Assembly (NCBI GenBank): GCA_007123775.1
Contig: SLGK01000042.1
Location: 1 to 64,000, forward strand
Reading direction: 5' to 3'
Source of the DNA: Anaerolineae bacterium
GTDB lineage: Bacteria > Chloroflexota > Anaerolineae > Promineifilales > Promineifilaceae
Length of the DNA: 64,000 nt
The notes beneath the pieces were generated by a model. That model made no database searches. It worked only from the letters and a program-made list of their open reading frames with translations, and had not been told where the DNA came from. Below, piece after piece: positions 1,147-49,860 of the stretch. The first letter of the stretch is position 1, and each line of letters opens with the position of its first letter. The translations under genes and the position numbers were made by a program.

Positions 1147-3699
1147 ATGAGTGAACAAACCTGTCGTCGCTGGCTGGCGCTGATTCTTATTGCCTATACA
1201 CTGCTGGGCGTCACCTACGCCCTGACCACACCCCCTTTTGAAGCCTCCGACGAACTTTGGCATTATCCCATGATCCGCCACCTGGCCGACGGCAATCCGC
1301 TGCCGGTGCAGGTGTTTGACCCGGCTGAGGCCGGCCCCTGGAATCAGGAAGCCAGCCAGCCGCCGCTCTACTACTATCTGGGTGCGGCGCTGACTTTTTG
1401 GGTTGACACCAGCGACATGGAGCAGGTGCGCTGGCTCAATCCCCACGTGGACACGGGCGTGTTGACCAAAGACGGCAATATCAATCTGGCCATTCACCCC
1501 CCAGACGCCAATCCCTGGCAGGGGACACTGCTGGCGGTCTACATCGTGCGCCTGTTTTCGGTCCTGTTGGGATTGGTGACGGTTTATTTGACCTTTCGCA
1601 TAGCGAGTTTGGTGGTTAGCGCAGACCTGACAGGTTGGCAATCGCAGATTACACCAAACTTGTCAGGTCTCCCGCTGGCACTAGGCGCAACGGCCGTTAC
1701 CGCCTTTCTGCCCATGTTTATCTTCATAAGCGGGGCGGTCAACAATGACAACCTGGTTATTCCCCTGGTGGCGCTGGCGCTGCTGTTGCTGATTTGGGCG
1801 GTAAAAGAAGGGCCAGTTGTTAAACAAAAAAATCCGCGTTCATCTGCGTTAATCAGCGTCCCATTATCTTACAAATTGCCGTGGGGAAATACGGCCGTTT
1901 CCGAAACCACCTACTGGCTCATTTTGGGCGTGGTTATCGGGCTGGCGGCGCTGACCAAGATCAGCGGCGTGGGGCTGTTGGGGCTGGCCTGGGGTACGCT
2001 GGTCGTCACCCGCTGGCAGGCGTGGCAGGCCGAGGCTGACCCCGACGCGCTGATCACCCCGGCCGTTCTTAGCCGCTGGATCATGCAGGCTACCGGCCGC
2101 TTCTTGCTGCTGCTTCTGCCCGTGCTGCTTATTGCCGGTTGGTGGTACTGGCGCAATATTCAGCTTTACGGCGACTGGACCGGCTGGAACGCCTTTGTGG
2201 CCGTCTTGGGGCAGCGGGCGCAGCCGGCCAGCCTGGCCCAACTATGGGGCGAACGCTGGGGCTTTATGCTCTCCTATTGGGGTCTCTTCGGCGGCGTCAA
2301 TGTGCCTATGCCCACCTGGATTTACCGCCTGCTCAACGGCGTTGCCATTATCTCATTCATTGGCCTGCTGTTCCACCTGGCCAGACTTATTTGGGGCTGG
2401 CCAAAGATTTTTACCGCCAAGACGCAAAGAACGCCAAGAGAGAACGAGAAAACTTTGCGCTCTTGGCGTCTTAGCGGTGAACCACTGTTCCACACGGCCG
2501 TTTCTCACATCTTCCGCTTTGCCCAACACCACTTTGGCCTGGTTGTCTGCCTGTTGTGGGTGGCGGCCACCATTATTGGCCTGATTCAGTGGGCCACTAC
2601 CACCTGGTCCTCCCAGGGGCGGCTGGTTTTTTCCGCGCTGCCCGCCATCAGCACCCTCATGGTGGTCGGGTTGGTCGGCTGGCTGCCGCCGCGCCCGGCC
2701 CGCCTCACCCTGGCCGGATTGGGCGGCTTTCTGTTTCTGATCGCCGCGCTGGCTCCTTTTTTGTGGATTCGGCCGGCCTATCAGCCGGCACTCTACCAAC
2801 CTACGACCCATGAACCCGCAGCTTTTCAGCCCCCGGCCTACCAGCCCCCGCTGACCCAATCTGTTGATTACAACTTCAACGACCAGATTCGGCTTACTGG
2901 CTATCAAATCGAACCGGCATTAAGAAGAATTGCATTACAGCCCGGCCACGCCGTTTGGATTCGCCTCTCCTGGGAAGTGTTGGCCCCGATGGAGCGGAAT
3001 TGGAGCCTCTTCTTGCACCTGAACGATCCCGTCTTGCAACGGCCGATTGCCCAGCGTGATATGTATTTGGGGCGTGGGTTGTTGGCTACCAGCTTCTTGC
3101 AGCCGGGGCAGCGCATTATTGACAGCCATTACCTGGAGATTCCGGCGACGACCATCGCCCCGGCCGAGTTAGAGATAGCGGTGGGCCTTTATGATTTTTA
3201 CACCTGGGAGCGGCTGCCCTTAACCAGCGGCGGCGATACGGCCGTATTGACCACGCTCCCCCTATCGCCCCTTGCCGGTGACTACCCCAACCCGGTCGAT
3301 TTCAACTTTGAGAACCGGCTGCGGCTGCGCGGCTTTGAGGTCACACCCCGTCTGACCGCGCCCGGCGAGACGGTAACGTTGACGCTCTATTGGGAGGCGA
3401 TACGGCCGTTAAACCAAAACTACACCCTCTTCGCCCAAATTGTAGACGCCGACACCACCCGCTGGGCCAGCCAGGATTTAGGGCCAGAGCCGCCCACCTC
3501 CGCCTGGCAGCCGGGCCAGGTAGAAACGATAACGATGCAGTTGACCCTCGACGAAGCCACGCCCGCCGAACTGTACCCGCTCATCATCGGGGCCTATATC
3601 CTGACCGACGCCGGTGAGTTTGTCCGCTTGCAGCTTCTAACGCCAGATGGACGGCTAACTGATAATTTCTTACAATTGACGCAGATACGAGTAGATTAG
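1147..3699 (+). CDS. Large multispanning membrane protein, DUF2142/GT39-like glycosyltransferase
   Basis: This 850-residue protein has about a dozen hydrophobic segments. After helix 1 comes an acidic motif (PPFEASDELWHY) and a QPPLYYYLG motif, as in polyprenyl-phosphate-dependent GT-C glycosyltransferases and DUF2142 proteins; the acidic loop is where such enzymes bind metal and lipid-linked sugar. The C-terminal third (from about residue 575) is soluble and contains two related beta-sandwich repeats, each opening with a DFNFxNxxRL-type strand. Three fold-back phrases lie in frame inside the gene (residues about 159-175, 228-239 and 422-445) without breaking it. The next gene, an O-antigen-ligase-like protein, follows on the same strand after a hairpin, so both may serve surface glycan assembly. 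The exact substrate cannot be told from the sequence. Confidence 0.7.
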   Translation: MSEQTCRRWLALILIAYTLLGVTYALTTPPFEASDELWHYPMIRHLADGNPLPVQVFDPAEAGPWNQEASQPPLYYYLGAALTFWVDTSDMEQVRWLNPHVDTGVLTKDGNINLAIHPPDANPWQGTLLAVYIVRLFSVLLGLVTVYLTFRIASLVVSADLTGWQSQITPNLSGLPLALGATAVTAFLPMFIFISGAVNNDNLVIPLVALALLLLIWAVKEGPVVKQKNPRSSALISVPLSYKLPWGNTAVSETTYWLILGVVIGLAALTKISGVGLLGLAWGTLVVTRWQAWQAEADPDALITPAVLSRWIMQATGRFLLLLLPVLLIAGWWYWRNIQLYGDWTGWNAFVAVLGQRAQPASLAQLWGERWGFMLSYWGLFGGVNVPMPTWIYRLLNGVAIISFIGLLFHLARLIWGWPKIFTAKTQRTPRENEKTLRSWRLSGEPLFHTAVSHIFRFAQHHFGLVVCLLWVAATIIGLIQWATTTWSSQGRLVFSALPAISTLMVVGLVGWLPPRPARLTLAGLGGFLFLIAALAPFLWIRPAYQPALYQPTTHEPAAFQPPAYQPPLTQSVDYNFNDQIRLTGYQIEPALRRIALQPGHAVWIRLSWEVLAPMERNWSLFLHLNDPVLQRPIAQRDMYLGRGLLATSFLQPGQRIIDSHYLEIPATTIAPAELEIAVGLYDFYTWERLPLTSGGDTAVLTTLPLSPLAGDYPNPVDFNFENRLRLRGFEVTPRLTAPGETVTLTLYWEAIRPLNQNYTLFAQIVDADTTRWASQDLGPEPPTSAWQPGQVETITMQLTLDEATPAELYPLIIGAYILTDAGEFVRLQLLTPDGRLTDNFLQLTQIRVD
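1623..1670. repeat. In-frame fold-back phrase (AGACCTGACAGGTT type)
   Basis: Fourteen-base arms (1623-1636 and 1657-1670) are inverted copies with one mismatch, separated by a 20-base loop. The element lies wholly inside the membrane-protein gene and is translated without interrupting it. The same class occurs between genes at 31872-31932. Confidence 0.75.
1830..1861. repeat. In-frame phrase AATCCGCGTTCATCTGCGTT
   Basis: This is a coding copy of the phrase that reads, on the opposite strand, in the dispersed repeats at 10951 and 49760 (GGACGCAGATTAACGCGG). It is translated as part of the membrane protein. Confidence 0.6.
2413..2478. repeat. In-frame fold-back phrase (ACCGCCAAGACGC type)
   Basis: The outer 13-base arms at 2413-2425 and 2466-2478 are complementary with one mismatch, and inner segments (CGCCAAGAG against CTCTTGGCG) also pair. 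It resembles the intergenic element at 27010-27082 and is translated in frame as a basic, hydrophilic loop. Confidence 0.75.
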
Positions 3700-10950: not shown

Positions 10951-11026
10951 AATAGGACGCAGATTAACGCGGATAAACGCAGATAATTTTCATTTATCGT
11001 GGTGCGCTGCGCCCATGTGGAACTCC
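10951..11026. repeat. Dispersed repeat, copy 1 (GGACGCAGATTAACGCGG type)
   Basis: About 76 bases matching the copy at 49760-49860 almost perfectly, apart from a 25-base insertion in the other copy and a few substitutions. The right part (10994-11026) encodes the last codons and stop of the MFS transporter gene. Confidence 0.85.
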
Positions 11027-13168: not shown

Positions 13169-15019
13169 TTAACTGGTCCGCATGACACAGCCTAAGGCGC
13201 ACATTGCCTCATGGGTGGTCAGGAAAATATGGTCACGACCTACGTGGTCAATAAACCCGACCCGTTCCAGCCGGTCCATTACTGGCCCTTTGATGTCTGT
13301 CAGGTGAAAATCGACCCCCGCATCACGCAGCCGGTCCACCAACGCTTCCAGCGTCTCCAGGGCGCTGGCGTCAATGAAGTTGATGGCCGAGCCGATCAGT
13401 ACCACGTGGTCAATATCCGGCCGCTCGCTCACCAGATGCAAAATCGTATCTTCCAGAAAGCGGCTGTTGGCAAAGTAAAGGCTCTCGTCGATGCGAATGG
13501 CGGCCACCCCCGGATAGGTCTGCACCGGATGGCGCAGCACGTTGCGATAAGTCTCCCCATCTAAACGGCCGACTTCGGCCACGTGGGGACGGCTGGTGCG
13601 CCACAGGTAGAGGCCCAGGCTGGCTAATACGCCAATCAAGATGCCCATCTCGACACTGATGACCAGAACAGCACCAAAAGTAACTGCCCAGGACGCGGCG
13701 TCAGCTTTGTTATAGGCCCAGGTTTGGCGCAGCGTACTCAGGTCGACCAGCCCCATGACGGCCACCAGAATAATGGCCGCCAGCACGGCCTGGGGTAGAA
13801 AATAGAAGAGGGGCATCAGGAATATAAGGGTGAGGGCTACGAGAACGGCCGTTATAATCGACGAAAGTCCCGTATTAGCCCCGGCCGCAAAATTGACCAC
13901 CGAGCGACTAATTCCTCCCGTAACCGGATAGCCACCGGTAAAGCTCGCCCCCAAATTGGCCAGCCCCAGCGCAGCCAATTCCTGGTTGGGGCTGACTTTT
14001 TGTCGCCGCTTACTGGCCAGCGATTTGGCCACCGAAATGCTTTCCGTATAGCCCACCAGACTGATGGCCAGGGCCGTTGGCAGGAGTAACTGCCACAGAT
14101 CCAGGTCAAAAGTGGGCGCGGTCAGCGGAGGCAAACCGGCGGGTACGTCCCCCACGATGCGTACGCCGGCCGTTTCATGTAGCCCCAGCAGCCAGACCAG
14201 CAGCGTACCTAACAAAACGACGACCAATGGCGCACTTTTGGCCAGGGGCACACGCCACTTTTCGGCCACGCCCCAGGCGGCCAGTTGGGTGGCAAAGCTG
14301 TACTTAAAGTAGAGCAGCAAAGCCACACTGCCCAGCCCAATAGCCAGGGTGATTAGATTTGATTGGGGGATGGCAACGGCCGTATACCAGGCCGCCCCCA
14401 CAAAATTCTCGCTCGCGGGCAGGGAAACTCCCAGCAGATGGCGCACCTGGCTTAGCCCAATCACCAGCGCCACCCCGTTGGTAAAGCCGGACAGGACGGG
14501 ATGGCTTAGAAAGTTAACCAGAAAGCCCAGCCGTGCCAGCCCCATGACCGCCTGGATAATACCCGACAGTAGGGCCAGAACCAGGGCTAACTGAACGTAA
14601 TCGACGCTGCCCGGCTCGGCCAATGGCGTCAGGGCCGTCGCCACCAACAATGAGACGATGGCTACGGGACCAACGGCCAGGGTGCGGCTGCTGCCCAGCA
14701 GCCCATACAAGGCGACTGGCACAATGCTGGCGTATAGGCCCACCTGAGGCGGCAGCCCGGCCAGCAGCGCGTAGGCCATCGCCTGCGGCACCAGCATAAT
14801 GGCCACGATCAGGCCCGCCAGCAGGTCACCAGGCAGGTCTTCGCGTTGGTAGTTGAGCAGGGGGGAAGAGGCGAAGAGGCGGAGTGGCGCAGTGGCAAAG
14901 TGGCGAAGCGCATTGTCCGCTACCTCGCCACTTCGTTCCTTTGCCACTTTGTTAAGCGGGGATGGCTTCACTTCGTTCAAAGTAATCTTCAGAGCAAAAG
15001 GCGAATGTGTCCAGATCAT
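13169..15019 (-). CDS. SulP family anion permease with STAS domain
   Basis: The core has the 10-14 helices of SLC26/SulP transporters, starting with LLNYQREDLPGDLLAGLIVAIMLVPQ and the QAMAYALLAGLPPQVGLYAS signature. A cytoplasmic STAS domain covers roughly residues 495-600 (AIRIDESLYFANSRFLEDTI, then IGSAINFIDASALETLE). SulP proteins move sulfate, bicarbonate or other anions across the inner membrane. It is the last gene of the sulfur operon, so sulfite or sulfate movement is a fair guess. The start is uncertain: the ATG at 15019 overlaps the upstream gene by 68 bases, and GTG codons at 14971 and 14947 are alternatives. The first 45 residues are translated from a fold-back repeat and do not look like SulP sequence. 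Confidence 0.85.
   Translation of the reverse strand: MIWTHSPFALKITLNEVKPSPLNKVAKERSGEVADNALRHFATAPLRLFASSPLLNYQREDLPGDLLAGLIVAIMLVPQAMAYALLAGLPPQVGLYASIVPVALYGLLGSSRTLAVGPVAIVSLLVATALTPLAEPGSVDYVQLALVLALLSGIIQAVMGLARLGFLVNFLSHPVLSGFTNGVALVIGLSQVRHLLGVSLPASENFVGAAWYTAVAIPQSNLITLAIGLGSVALLLYFKYSFATQLAAWGVAEKWRVPLAKSAPLVVVLLGTLLVWLLGLHETAGVRIVGDVPAGLPPLTAPTFDLDLWQLLLPTALAISLVGYTESISVAKSLASKRRQKVSPNQELAALGLANLGASFTGGYPVTGGISRSVVNFAAGANTGLSSIITAVLVALTLIFLMPLFYFLPQAVLAAIILVAVMGLVDLSTLRQTWAYNKADAASWAVTFGAVLVISVEMGILIGVLASLGLYLWRTSRPHVAEVGRLDGETYRNVLRHPVQTYPGVAAIRIDESLYFANSRFLEDTILHLVSERPDIDHVVLIGSAINFIDASALETLEALVDRLRDAGVDFHLTDIKGPVMDRLERVGFIDHVGRDHIFLTTHEAMCALGCVMRTS
14868..14952. repeat. Fold-back of GTGGCGAAGTGGC phrases at the SulP 5' end
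   Basis: GGCGGAGTGGCGCAGTGGCA on the left is answered by CGCCACTTCGTTCCTTTGCC on the right, giving imperfect inverted arms. It lies across the likely start region of the permease gene. The same phrase class occurs at 19481, 34556, 36040 and 56993. Confidence 0.7.
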
Positions 15020-31823: not shown

Positions 31824-31871
31824 GGTGATTGTCTGCCGCCAGGACGCGAAGGTTTGTTCTGAGTTCACTGA

Positions 31872-31932
31872 AGACCTGCGAGGTTTTGACTCCCGTTTAT
31901 TGCGACACTCCTGGCGTAAACCTCGCAGGTCT
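31872..31932. repeat. Fold-back AGACCTGCGAGGTTT, perfect arms
   Basis: Perfect 15-base inverted arms (31872-31886 and 31918-31932) flank a 31-base loop. It lies between the metallophosphoesterase and the next gene. The in-frame copy at 1623-1670 is of the same class. Confidence 0.85.
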
Positions 31933-44177: not shown

Positions 44178-47100
44178 ATGACCAACCGGTATCGAATTCT
44201 GACAGCAGCGGGACTGCTAACGGCCGCTTTAGCCTTGCTGCTAATGGGTGCTTTGCACACCCGCCAGCTGGAACTGACACGCGGCCTGCCCGACGGCCTA
44301 CCCCAGCCAATTGCCCATGCGGGGGTGCAGCCCGGCCTCAACCTCGATCTGGCGGCGTATGATGAGCAAAAACTGGCCGACAATCTGGCCCAAATCAAAG
44401 GGTTGGGTGTTAATTATGTCAAGCACTCCTTTTACTACGATGAGAATTTTGATTGGGCTGAGAGCGATAGGCTAGTAACGGCCGTATCCCACCACAACCT
44501 CACCCTAATCCCCCTGCTAGACGGCAGCCCCCATGACAACTTTGCCCCCGTACCGCCGGCCGACTTTGCTGCCTGGGCCGGGGATTTTGCCCAACGCTAC
44601 GGCTCGCAATTTCCGGTCTATATCATCTGGGACGAACCCAACATCACCAGCCATTGGGGCGGCCAGCCCGTCAACGCCGCCGAATATGCCGCTATTCTCA
44701 GCGCGGCCAGCGCCGCCATTCGCGCCGCCGATAGCGAAGCCCTGATCAGCGCCGCTCCCTTAGCCCCCACCATCGAAACCGGCCCCCAAAACCTGGCCGA
44801 CCCGCTCTACTTGCAGCGATTGTACGAAGCCGACGTGGCCCACGCTTTCGACATCGTGATGGCCAAGCCGTATGGCTTTGACTACTCACCCCACGACCGG
44901 CGCGTCGATCAGAACATTACCAACTTCAGCCGGGCCATTCTGCTGCGGGAGGTGATGGAACGGAATGGCGACGGCCACAAGCCGATCTGGGCCGGTAACT
45001 GGGGCTGGAACGCGCTGCCCGCCGGCTGGACTGGTCCGCCCTCCATCTGGGGGGATGCCACGCCAGCGCAGCAGGCCGACTGGACGGTAGCCGCCCTGGA
45101 ACGGGCGCGGCAAGAGTGGCCCTGGATGGGGCTGATGTTCCTGGAAAACTGGCAACCCGGTACGCACGAGGCGGACCCGCGCTGGGGCTTTAGCATTGCC
45201 GGACGGGAAACGGCCGTTACCCTGCAACAGACCATCGCCCAATGGGATGAGGCCATCGCCTATCCCGGCTTCCACCTGGCCCGCCCCGACCATCCGGCCC
45301 AGCAATACCAGGGCAACTGGCGCTTCTCGCCTGAATTTGGGGCCGACATCAGCCAGTCGGAGCCACCCGACAGCCTGACCTTCACCTTCTGGGGCACCGA
45401 CGTGGGGCTGCGCGTGCGCCGGGCCGATTTTCGCGCCCGACTTTACATCACCATCAACGGCCAGCCAGCCAACGCCCTGCCCCAGGACGAATTTGGCAGT
45501 ATGTTGATTCTGACCAGCGCCGACCCGGACGAAGATTACATCAGCCTGGAATGGGTTGCCCGCAACCTGAAGCCGGGTATTCACACCATGACCATCACGG
45601 CCAGCCGGGGCTGGGACCAGTGGGCCTTGCACGGCTTTAGCGTGGCCTATCATCCGCCTGATCGGGGTTATCGCTGGGCCATGGCGGGGCTGGGGTTAAC
45701 GGCCGTTCTTGCCCTATTCCTCGCTTTCTACGGCGCCCGCCGGGTTGATTGGGGTGCCTGGGATGCAAGATGGCGGGTTAGATACGGCCGTTTCTCCGAC
45801 CAGACCCAACTCCTTTTAACCGCGCTGGCCGGGGCCATCGTGGCCCTCACCGGCTGGCTCACCTGGGGCAGCGAAGCGGCCGGCCTCTACCGCCGCCTGG
45901 GGGATGCCGGGCAGTTGGCCCTCACCGCCGCCACCGCCTCTATTTTCTACGTAGCCCCCAGCTTCTACGTCTATGCCCTGGCGCTGGTGGTTCTGCTGCT
46001 GCTCATCCGGCTGCGGCCGGCCTGGGGACTGGTCCTGATCGCCTTCTGCTTCCCCTTCTACGTCCCCGACATAACCAAGCCCATCTTCAGCTACCGCTTC
46101 TCGCCCGTCGAAATATTCGCCCTGGTCACGCTGGCAGCCTATTTGTTGAAAGCGATCCCGGAACGGGCATCTCAGTATGCAGTAGCCAGTAGTCAGTATG
46201 CAGTAGACAATAAAAAAGACTCACCACGCACTACGCACTACGCACTACGCACTACGCATCACGCATCACGCATCACGCAACCCGCAACCCGCAGCCTACA
46301 CGCAGCCGATTACGCCGCCATTGCCCTCCTGTTGGTAGCCACCCTCTCCCTCTTCTTTACAGAACGGCTGGGGTTGGCCCTGACGGAGTACCGGGTGGTT
46401 ATCGTAGAGCCAATCATCTTTTACTTCTTACTGCGGGCTATCCGGCCAAGCGGCCGGGAGATGTGGCGGCTGCTGGATGGCTTTGTGCTGGGCGGGCTGA
46501 TAGTGGCCGGGATTGGGCTGTGGCAGTATGGTACGGGCCACGAGGCGCTGATTACGGCCGAAGAAGGATTGATGCGACTGCGCTCGATTTATGGCTCACC
46601 CAACAACGTGGCCCTTTATCTGGGCCGAATTTTGCCCCTGCTGCTGGCGCTGGCCTGGTTGGGTGGGCCAACACACGGCCGACGACGTTGGCTGTACGGG
46701 GCAGCGGCCGTTCCTGTCGGGCTGGCGATTTTGCTGACGTTTAGCCGGGGTGGGCTGCTGCTGGGCGTCCCGGTCGGCTTTCTGGTGATTTTCTGGGTAT
46801 GGCAAAAGCGCAACGGCCGTTCCCCCTGGCCCTGGCTGATACTCTTTGCCGCTGCGGGCGCGATTGGCCTGCTCATCGCCCAACGCATACCGGCCCTGGC
46901 CGGGCGCATGGACCTGACCAGCGCCACCAGCTTTTTCCGCATCAACCTGTGGCGGGCCAGCCTCAGCATGATTGCCGACCATCCCCTGACCGGCGTGGGG
47001 CTAGACAACTTCCTCTATGCCTATCGCGGCCGCTACATTTTTGACGCCGCCTGGCAAGAACCCAATCTAAACCATCCCCACAATATTGTGCTGGATTTTG

Positions 47101-47366
47101 CCACACGCCTGGGGCTGTTGGGGCTGCTGGTTGGGGGCTGGCTTTTTTACAGCCTGGGCCGCACGCTGCGCCGGGCCATGCACCGCGTGACGGCCGAATG
47201 GCAGCCGGTGGCCGTAGGGCTGGCCGGGTCACTGGCGGCCATTCTGGCCCACGGGCTGGTGGACCACAGCTTCTTTTTGATTGACCTGGCGTATGCCTTC
47301 TTTTTGTTGTTGGGAACGGCCGTTTGGTTGGAGCAAAACAAGCGTACTACCGGTGCGTCATCATGA
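44178..47366 (+). CDS. Fusion of glycosidase-like TIM barrel and O-antigen ligase-like membrane domain
   Basis: The 1062-residue protein starts with a signal-anchor helix (residues 8-25). Residues about 45-380 resemble a GH5/GH39-type barrel with candidate acid/base Glu near 153 (YIIWDEPNI) and a Glu near 318 (MFLENWQPG). A beta-sandwich module follows (about 385-490). From about 495 to the end there are 10 or more helices with O-antigen ligase features (LLTFSRGGLLLG, ADHPLTGVGLDNFLYAYRGRY). A fold-back phrase lies in frame at about residues 664-708. The gene ends convergently with the Nmad3 gene. Probably it cuts or modifies a glycan and ligates or polymerises it on the outer face; this is inference. 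Confidence 0.72.
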   Translation: MTNRYRILTAAGLLTAALALLLMGALHTRQLELTRGLPDGLPQPIAHAGVQPGLNLDLAAYDEQKLADNLAQIKGLGVNYVKHSFYYDENFDWAESDRLVTAVSHHNLTLIPLLDGSPHDNFAPVPPADFAAWAGDFAQRYGSQFPVYIIWDEPNITSHWGGQPVNAAEYAAILSAASAAIRAADSEALISAAPLAPTIETGPQNLADPLYLQRLYEADVAHAFDIVMAKPYGFDYSPHDRRVDQNITNFSRAILLREVMERNGDGHKPIWAGNWGWNALPAGWTGPPSIWGDATPAQQADWTVAALERARQEWPWMGLMFLENWQPGTHEADPRWGFSIAGRETAVTLQQTIAQWDEAIAYPGFHLARPDHPAQQYQGNWRFSPEFGADISQSEPPDSLTFTFWGTDVGLRVRRADFRARLYITINGQPANALPQDEFGSMLILTSADPDEDYISLEWVARNLKPGIHTMTITASRGWDQWALHGFSVAYHPPDRGYRWAMAGLGLTAVLALFLAFYGARRVDWGAWDARWRVRYGRFSDQTQLLLTALAGAIVALTGWLTWGSEAAGLYRRLGDAGQLALTAATASIFYVAPSFYVYALALVVLLLLIRLRPAWGLVLIAFCFPFYVPDITKPIFSYRFSPVEIFALVTLAAYLLKAIPERASQYAVASSQYAVDNKKDSPRTTHYALRTTHHASRITQPATRSLHAADYAAIALLLVATLSLFFTERLGLALTEYRVVIVEPIIFYFLLRAIRPSGREMWRLLDGFVLGGLIVAGIGLWQYGTGHEALITAEEGLMRLRSIYGSPNNVALYLGRILPLLLALAWLGGPTHGRRRWLYGAAAVPVGLAILLTFSRGGLLLGVPVGFLVIFWVWQKRNGRSPWPWLILFAAAGAIGLLIAQRIPALAGRMDLTSATSFFRINLWRASLSMIADHPLTGVGLDNFLYAYRGRYIFDAAWQEPNLNHPHNIVLDFATRLGLLGLLVGGWLFYSLGRTLRRAMHRVTAEWQPVAVGLAGSLAAILAHGLVDHSFFLIDLAYAFFLLLGTAVWLEQNKRTTGASS
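46169..46301. repeat. In-frame phrase array (CAGTATGCAGTAG and CACTACGCACTACG phrases)
   Basis: Repeated CAGTATGCAGTAG phrases are followed by GCACTACGCACTACGCATC and CACGCATCACGCA phrases. The same phrases occur in intergenic elements (17783, 63262). They are translated in frame inside the glycosidase/ligase gene as a basic, His/Thr-rich loop between membrane helices. Confidence 0.8.
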
Positions 47367-49759: not shown

Positions 49760-49860
49760 AATAGGACGCAGATTAACGCGGACTTCGTCGTGAGCTCAGC
49801 CGAACGATAAACGCAGATAGTTTTCATTTATTGTGGTGCGCTGCGCCCATGTTGAACTCC
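49760..49860. repeat. Dispersed repeat, copy 2, with 25-base nested insertion
   Basis: Matches copy 1 at 10951-11026 on both sides of a 25-base insertion at 49782-49806 (core GTGAGCTCAGCCGAACG). The outer parts differ by only a few bases. The rest of the 428-base gene-free stretch to 50171 holds a short phrase at 49908-49945 and the acpP leader; no clear promoter or RNA was seen there. Confidence 0.85.

Follow-up and report, generated by a model that had tools for sequence, protein, structure and literature searches.

Three short repeat elements in frame within loops of a GT-C-like membrane protein gene from an Anaerolineae bacterium

Introduction

Protein-coding palindromes are best known so far from Rickettsia, and after that from Wolbachia. 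The Rickettsia palindromic elements (RPEs) are 105–146 bp long and have been seen in 19 reading frames, including that of a functional guanylate kinase (PMC2229807), and one RPE-bearing enzyme is both translated and active (PMC2229807; PMC3733652). REP and BIME sequences are short (20–40 bp) high-copy palindromes that carry a GTAG or CGTC tag and go together with RAYT transposases (PMC3733652). In the P6b stem-loop of the Nostoc tRNA-Leu intron, the stem is composed of 7-nt motifs whose class has been replaced several times at one and the same site (PMC4476775).

Here we describe three repeat elements, E1, E2 and E3, inside a single membrane protein gene in a 64-kb stretch of DNA from an Anaerolineae bacterium (64,000 nucleotides, hereafter the window). 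As in Rickettsia and Wolbachia, palindromic repeats sit in intergenic DNA and also, in frame, within genes for conserved proteins. Compared to the RPEs, which are 105–146 bp long and occur in Rickettsiales (PMC2229807), the elements are shorter (33–69 nt) and belong to Chloroflexota, several unrelated classes share one gene, one class is not palindromic, and one loop holds different classes in different relatives. They resemble REP/BIME sequences in being short high-copy palindromes, but the ends of E1 have neither a GTAG nor a CGTC tag, no E1 lies beside the two Y1 transposases of the bacterium's genome, and in-frame genic copies of E1 are frequent. The class turnover in the loops of orthologues is a close parallel to the heptanucleotide repeats of Nostoc, and 7-nt phrases do occur in relatives; the Nostoc repeats, however, reside in intron RNA, whereas here the loops are apparently translated, and E1, E2 and E3 in the window have no 7-nt tandem period. 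In the literature searched, a body outside which the original RPE papers fall, none of the three sequences appears as a described repeat, and the four string matches led to unrelated papers.

Results

The host gene and its protein model

The coordinates of the host gene, the three elements and a fourth loop discussed below are given in Table 1.

Table 1 Host gene, repeat elements and additional loop in the window
Feature	Position	Strand	Description
Host gene	1147–3699	+	850-aa membrane protein, GT-C glycosyltransferase-like predicted fold and C-terminal beta-sandwiches
E1	1623–1670	+	48-nt palindromic element, apparently translated as ADLTGWQSQITPNLSGL (aa 159–175)
E2	1830–1861	+	One-armed 10-nt direct repeat, apparently translated as ~KNPRSSALISV (aa 229–239)
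E3	2413–2478	+	66-nt palindromic element, apparently translated as TAKTQRTPRENEKTLRSWRLSG (aa 423–444)
Fourth loop, ~aa 291–310	2017–2076	+	Without element in the window; between predicted helices 272–296 and 305–341

The reading frame of the host gene is open across 850 codons, with E1, E2 and E3 included, which bears out the first-pass annotation both in the frame and in the positions of the elements. A Pfam search matched no family to the protein. Orthologues with 39–61% identity are nevertheless present throughout the family and the class; every relative searched gives matches, many of them near full length with 48–61% identity. The AlphaFold2 model, made from 54 sequences, has a mean pLDDT of 89.2 and a pTM of 0.90, and its Foldseek matches include the GT-C enzymes Pmt4, ArnT and ALG9. 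In this model all three elements are predicted to lie in low-pLDDT loops between membrane helices, in agreement with the loop placement proposed earlier: E1 between helices 126–160 and 175–186, E2 between helices 201–220 and 253–268, and E3 between helices 390–416 and 447–461. From the GT-C topology we infer that these three loops, together with the loop near aa 296–305, would be on the cytoplasmic side and away from the face with the conserved residues D35 and E36. Judging from the intact frame, the elements appear to be translated as stretches of the protein. The suggestion that these stretches are hydrophilic fits the E3 peptide well and the E1 peptide only moderately.

Sequence, folding and abundance of the elements

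E1 is built from outer arms, AGACCTGACAGGTT and AACTTGTCAGGTCT, that enclose an inner hairpin. Its ends are sharp, with the termini AGACC...GGTCT and no conservation of the bases outside them, and it has two chief sizes, a 33-nt form (AGACCTGACAGGTTTnnnAAACCTGTCAGGTCT) and a 48-nt form that contains the inner hairpin; across the elements the sizes are 33, 48 and 57–69 nt. E1 copies in one other genome (G013) are embedded in a longer repeat. The two bases that directly flank E1 form a Watson-Crick pair in 0/35 copies (L300–L334) of genome G034, where about 10 would be expected, and in 3/39 copies of the bacterium's own genome (G000).

Three fold-backs had been claimed for the gene. RNA folding supports two of them, E1 (z −5.9) and E3 (z −4.0). 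E2 does not fold back (z −0.75) and is therefore classed as a one-armed 10-nt direct repeat, with the units ATCCGCGTTC ATCTGCGTTA ATCAGCGTCC. With respect to the stem-loop form of the RPEs, the three elements are a mixed set.

In the bacterium's own 5.59-Mb genome, the E1 arm AGACCTGACAGGTT has 131 matches with at most one mismatch, and with at most two mismatches the E3 arm ACCGCCAAGACGCAAAG has 60 and the E2 phrase CATCTGCGTTAATCAGCGT has 41, compared to 0 for the reversed-pattern control in each case. These repeat numbers are far beyond chance. That each class is also found between genes is true genome-wide; within the window, further close copies exist for E2 only (10957–10984 and 49766–49783). 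The window also contains a variant E1 hairpin with compensatory arm changes, GACCTGCGAGGTT...AACCTCGCAGGTC (31873–31931, in the stretch 31836–31931), which sits between two called genes and adjoins an E3-like arm.

The elements are insertions relative to orthologues

We aligned 80 orthologues with MAFFT and inspected up to 66 of them per stretch. E1, E2 and E3 all correspond to gaps in the orthologues inspected, and are thus insertions, a trait shared with the RPEs; one orthologue (L040) is extended at the E1 site by unrelated sequence. Since the length of the E2 loop varies in all relatives, the statement is weaker for E2. This was the check suggested in the first-pass annotation, and the residues are not common to the orthologues inspected. 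Judged by the alignment, the elements are lineage-specific insertions in the loops of a GT-C-like membrane protein, less securely so for E2. An open frame in an otherwise well conserved protein could also mean that the residues are ancestral, resemble repeats by accident and were lost in relatives. We consider this barely credible: the orthologues inspected have gaps at all three positions, and the same DNA is present dozens of times elsewhere, between genes too. The ancestral reading is refuted for E1 and E3, and less firmly for E2. In near relatives of the orthologous locus, a comparison for empty sites yielded 8 indels only, with no clean E1 or E3 among them.

In-gene copies keep length and phase

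A census of copies was made with a purpose-written codon-score gene caller and rests mainly on the bacterium's own genome. Of 48 complete E1 copies, 21 are intergenic, 5 are at gene edges and 22 are in genes, the last count including one compound array twice. All 22 in-gene copies have lengths that are multiples of three, compared to 17/21 intergenic copies (Fisher p 0.048), a contrast that is marginal. The in-gene copies are read as DLTG...NLSGL (or the variant DLSG...NLTGL) in 18/22 cases and as RPDR...PVRS in 4/22; the third phase, which contains TGA, is used by none of the 22. For E3, the in-gene lengths are 63, 66, 66, 66 and 69 nt (5/5 multiples of three), whereas intergenic copies span 57–68 nt and are multiples of three in 3/14 cases (Fisher p 0.005). 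Overall E1 avoids coding DNA, with 22/48 copies in genes compared to ~82% coding sequence (p 2e-8). Most intergenic E1 copies measure 33 or 48 nt in the own genome and 34 nt in other genomes, G034 among them, with 16/63 multiples of three in these others (p 1e-5 for the difference). The E1 stock of the own genome thus looks coding-compatible.

According to Pfam, the genes with in-frame copies encode real proteins, among them a YjeF/NAD(P)H-hydrate repair enzyme, a CCA-adding enzyme and GH94 (all three with E1), an HSP70-like protein, PMT-type glycosyltransferases, an Eco57I-type methylase and others. E1 occupies ~aa 171–187 of the NAD(P)H-hydrate repair enzyme, and it is there that the alignment to TM0922 breaks (query 162–192 against 148–154). 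One PMT-like gene (L237) has both E1 and E3 in frame.

Other repeat classes occupy the same loops in relatives

In relatives, other phrases are common in the E2 loop, the E3 loop and the loop at aa 291–310; all of them are in frame, and many have an inverted partner. Segments with a 7-nt period in the orthologues (n = 30) fall in the E2 loop (11), the E3 loop (8) and the aa 291–310 loop (9); outside these loops there is one genuine case (L061), and the remaining segment consists of N only. With that segment set aside, other periods yield 0–2 segments. The E3 loop has a strong hairpin (z < −2.5) in 13/53 cases and the E2 loop in 6/59, compared to 0–2 of ~60 in each of five control stretches. 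Several orthologues have no phrase at all in these loops. As far as these sequences go, the loops of the host protein that hold elements in the window hold different phrase classes in other lineages.

Repeats can cause wrong contig joins, and the genome is fragmented (344 contigs) with a contamination estimate of 5%. An assembly artefact inside the gene is still very unlikely. On both sides of each element the protein carries on in the same frame, three times in this one gene, many in-gene copies elsewhere keep the frame, and the independent assemblies of relatives have phrases in the same loops.

Two further genes in the window contain in-frame phrases. An O-antigen ligase-like protein of 1062 aa (44178–47366, plus strand; PF04932) has two 7-nt-period phrases in frame at 46173–46291, SQYAVASSQYAV and RTTHYALRTTHHASRITQPATR. 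A SulP-type sulfate permease (13169–15019, minus strand) has an 8-nt-period fold-back at 14862–14960, read near the N-terminus ahead of the Sulfate_transp domain.

Stems covary and repeat classes are exchanged

The outer arms of E1 are nearly invariant in 21 copies of 48 nt, yet they covary at positions 8/41 (A-T, T-A, C-G) and 9/40 (C-G, G-C). The inner stem is paired in 16–19 of 19 copies with covarying sequence, and the triloop of the 48-nt copies is hypervariable. At orthologous sites of the sister genomes G034 and G021 we find a reverse-complemented loop in two cases, one compensatory arm change, and a different phrase class at three sites. When the joined flanks of 19 G034 elements were searched in G021, no clean empty site was seen; where an orthologous site was found, it was mostly occupied, either by the same element or by a phrase of a different class. 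The paralogues L128 and L146 have 47/48 element bases in common, with flanks that are 62% and 84% identical. Stems are conserved between genes as well.

This behaviour of the stems is consistent with hairpin-templated correction, and selection is also possible. Under selection, the elements would have been recruited for a function, with mRNA hairpins that pause translation or stabilize the message, or with a peptide that binds a partner. Stems that covary and persist while loops vary, the near identity of the element in the two paralogues, and the retention of other-class hairpins in the same loops by relatives would all agree with such a role. We nonetheless judge recruitment unlikely, because several orthologues manage without any phrase in these loops, different lineages have different repeat classes, E1 is depleted in coding DNA as a whole, and the conservation of stems holds between genes too and is explicable by hairpin-templated correction without selection on the host.

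Distribution and search for a mobilizer

The E1 arm is present in 89/298 genomes of the class Anaerolineae, with a patchy distribution and a maximum of 482 arm matches per genome. Complete E1 was not found outside Anaerolineae in 301 genomes drawn from Chloroflexota. E1 also occurs in nine IMG/VR contigs. A Y1/RAYT transposase was considered as mobilizer and rejected: no E1 lies within ~1.5 kb of the two PF01797 genes of the own genome, and a single weak E3-like match near one of them was shown not to be an element. A target-site duplication of the kind seen in MITEs was not found for E1: in 35 G034 copies, direct matches between the two flanks are not clearly enriched.

The palindromic octamer ACGGCCGT occurs 394 times in a 298-kb sample of the own genome that includes the window (1 per 756 bp), and the next commonest palindromic octamer occurs 55 times in the same sample. 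In its over-abundance it is like the HIP1 octamer of cyanobacteria. It is found 20–30 nt or less past each of E1, E2 and E3, but a link between elements and octamer was discarded, since genome-wide there is no enrichment (5/73 elements compared to 10.4% at random).

Discussion

The first-pass annotation had likened the elements to RPEs, and the likeness holds in the way they work: all in-gene copies of E1 keep the reading frame and, like RPE insertions, the elements of the host gene are absent from orthologues. RPEs are a sequence family of Rickettsiales, and E1 is set apart from them by its host. As the elements differ from RPEs in size and host, and apparently in sequence, we do not file them as RPEs; they work like RPEs but are no members of that family.

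The explanation that we favor, and consider likely, is that E1, E3 and the one-armed E2 each belong to a family of short interspersed repeats of Anaerolineae and have entered a protein gene, where they are tolerated. The elements would arrive by a mobilizer or a copying process, and purifying selection would remove insertions that break the frame, that are in the TGA-containing phase or that strike structured parts of a protein. Those that remain would be translated, with little effect, into disordered extensions of loops that are probably cytoplasmic. The arms would be kept complementary and the loops flipped by hairpin-templated correction, or by template switching in the course of replication, and repeat classes may be swapped in place in the same way. 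On this view the elements are selfish or structural DNA; the protein puts up with them, and they have no function in it.

We also put forward, tentatively and with some doubt, that fixed docking loops and intergenic spots are repeatedly overwritten by other hairpin classes via template switching, as in an exchange of cassettes. If this is true, protein loops would be rewritten wholesale by events driven by DNA structure, sometimes with no change in protein length.

The elements provide an independent case, from environmental Chloroflexota, of repeats that appear to become protein. They are much shorter than the RPEs, several classes occupy one gene, and the frame preference is clear. For annotators, the lesson is that loops of this kind should not be taken for conserved protein. 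With the E1 arm in 89/298 genomes of the class, the family offers a large natural data set on how repeat DNA may become protein and where proteins tolerate repeats.
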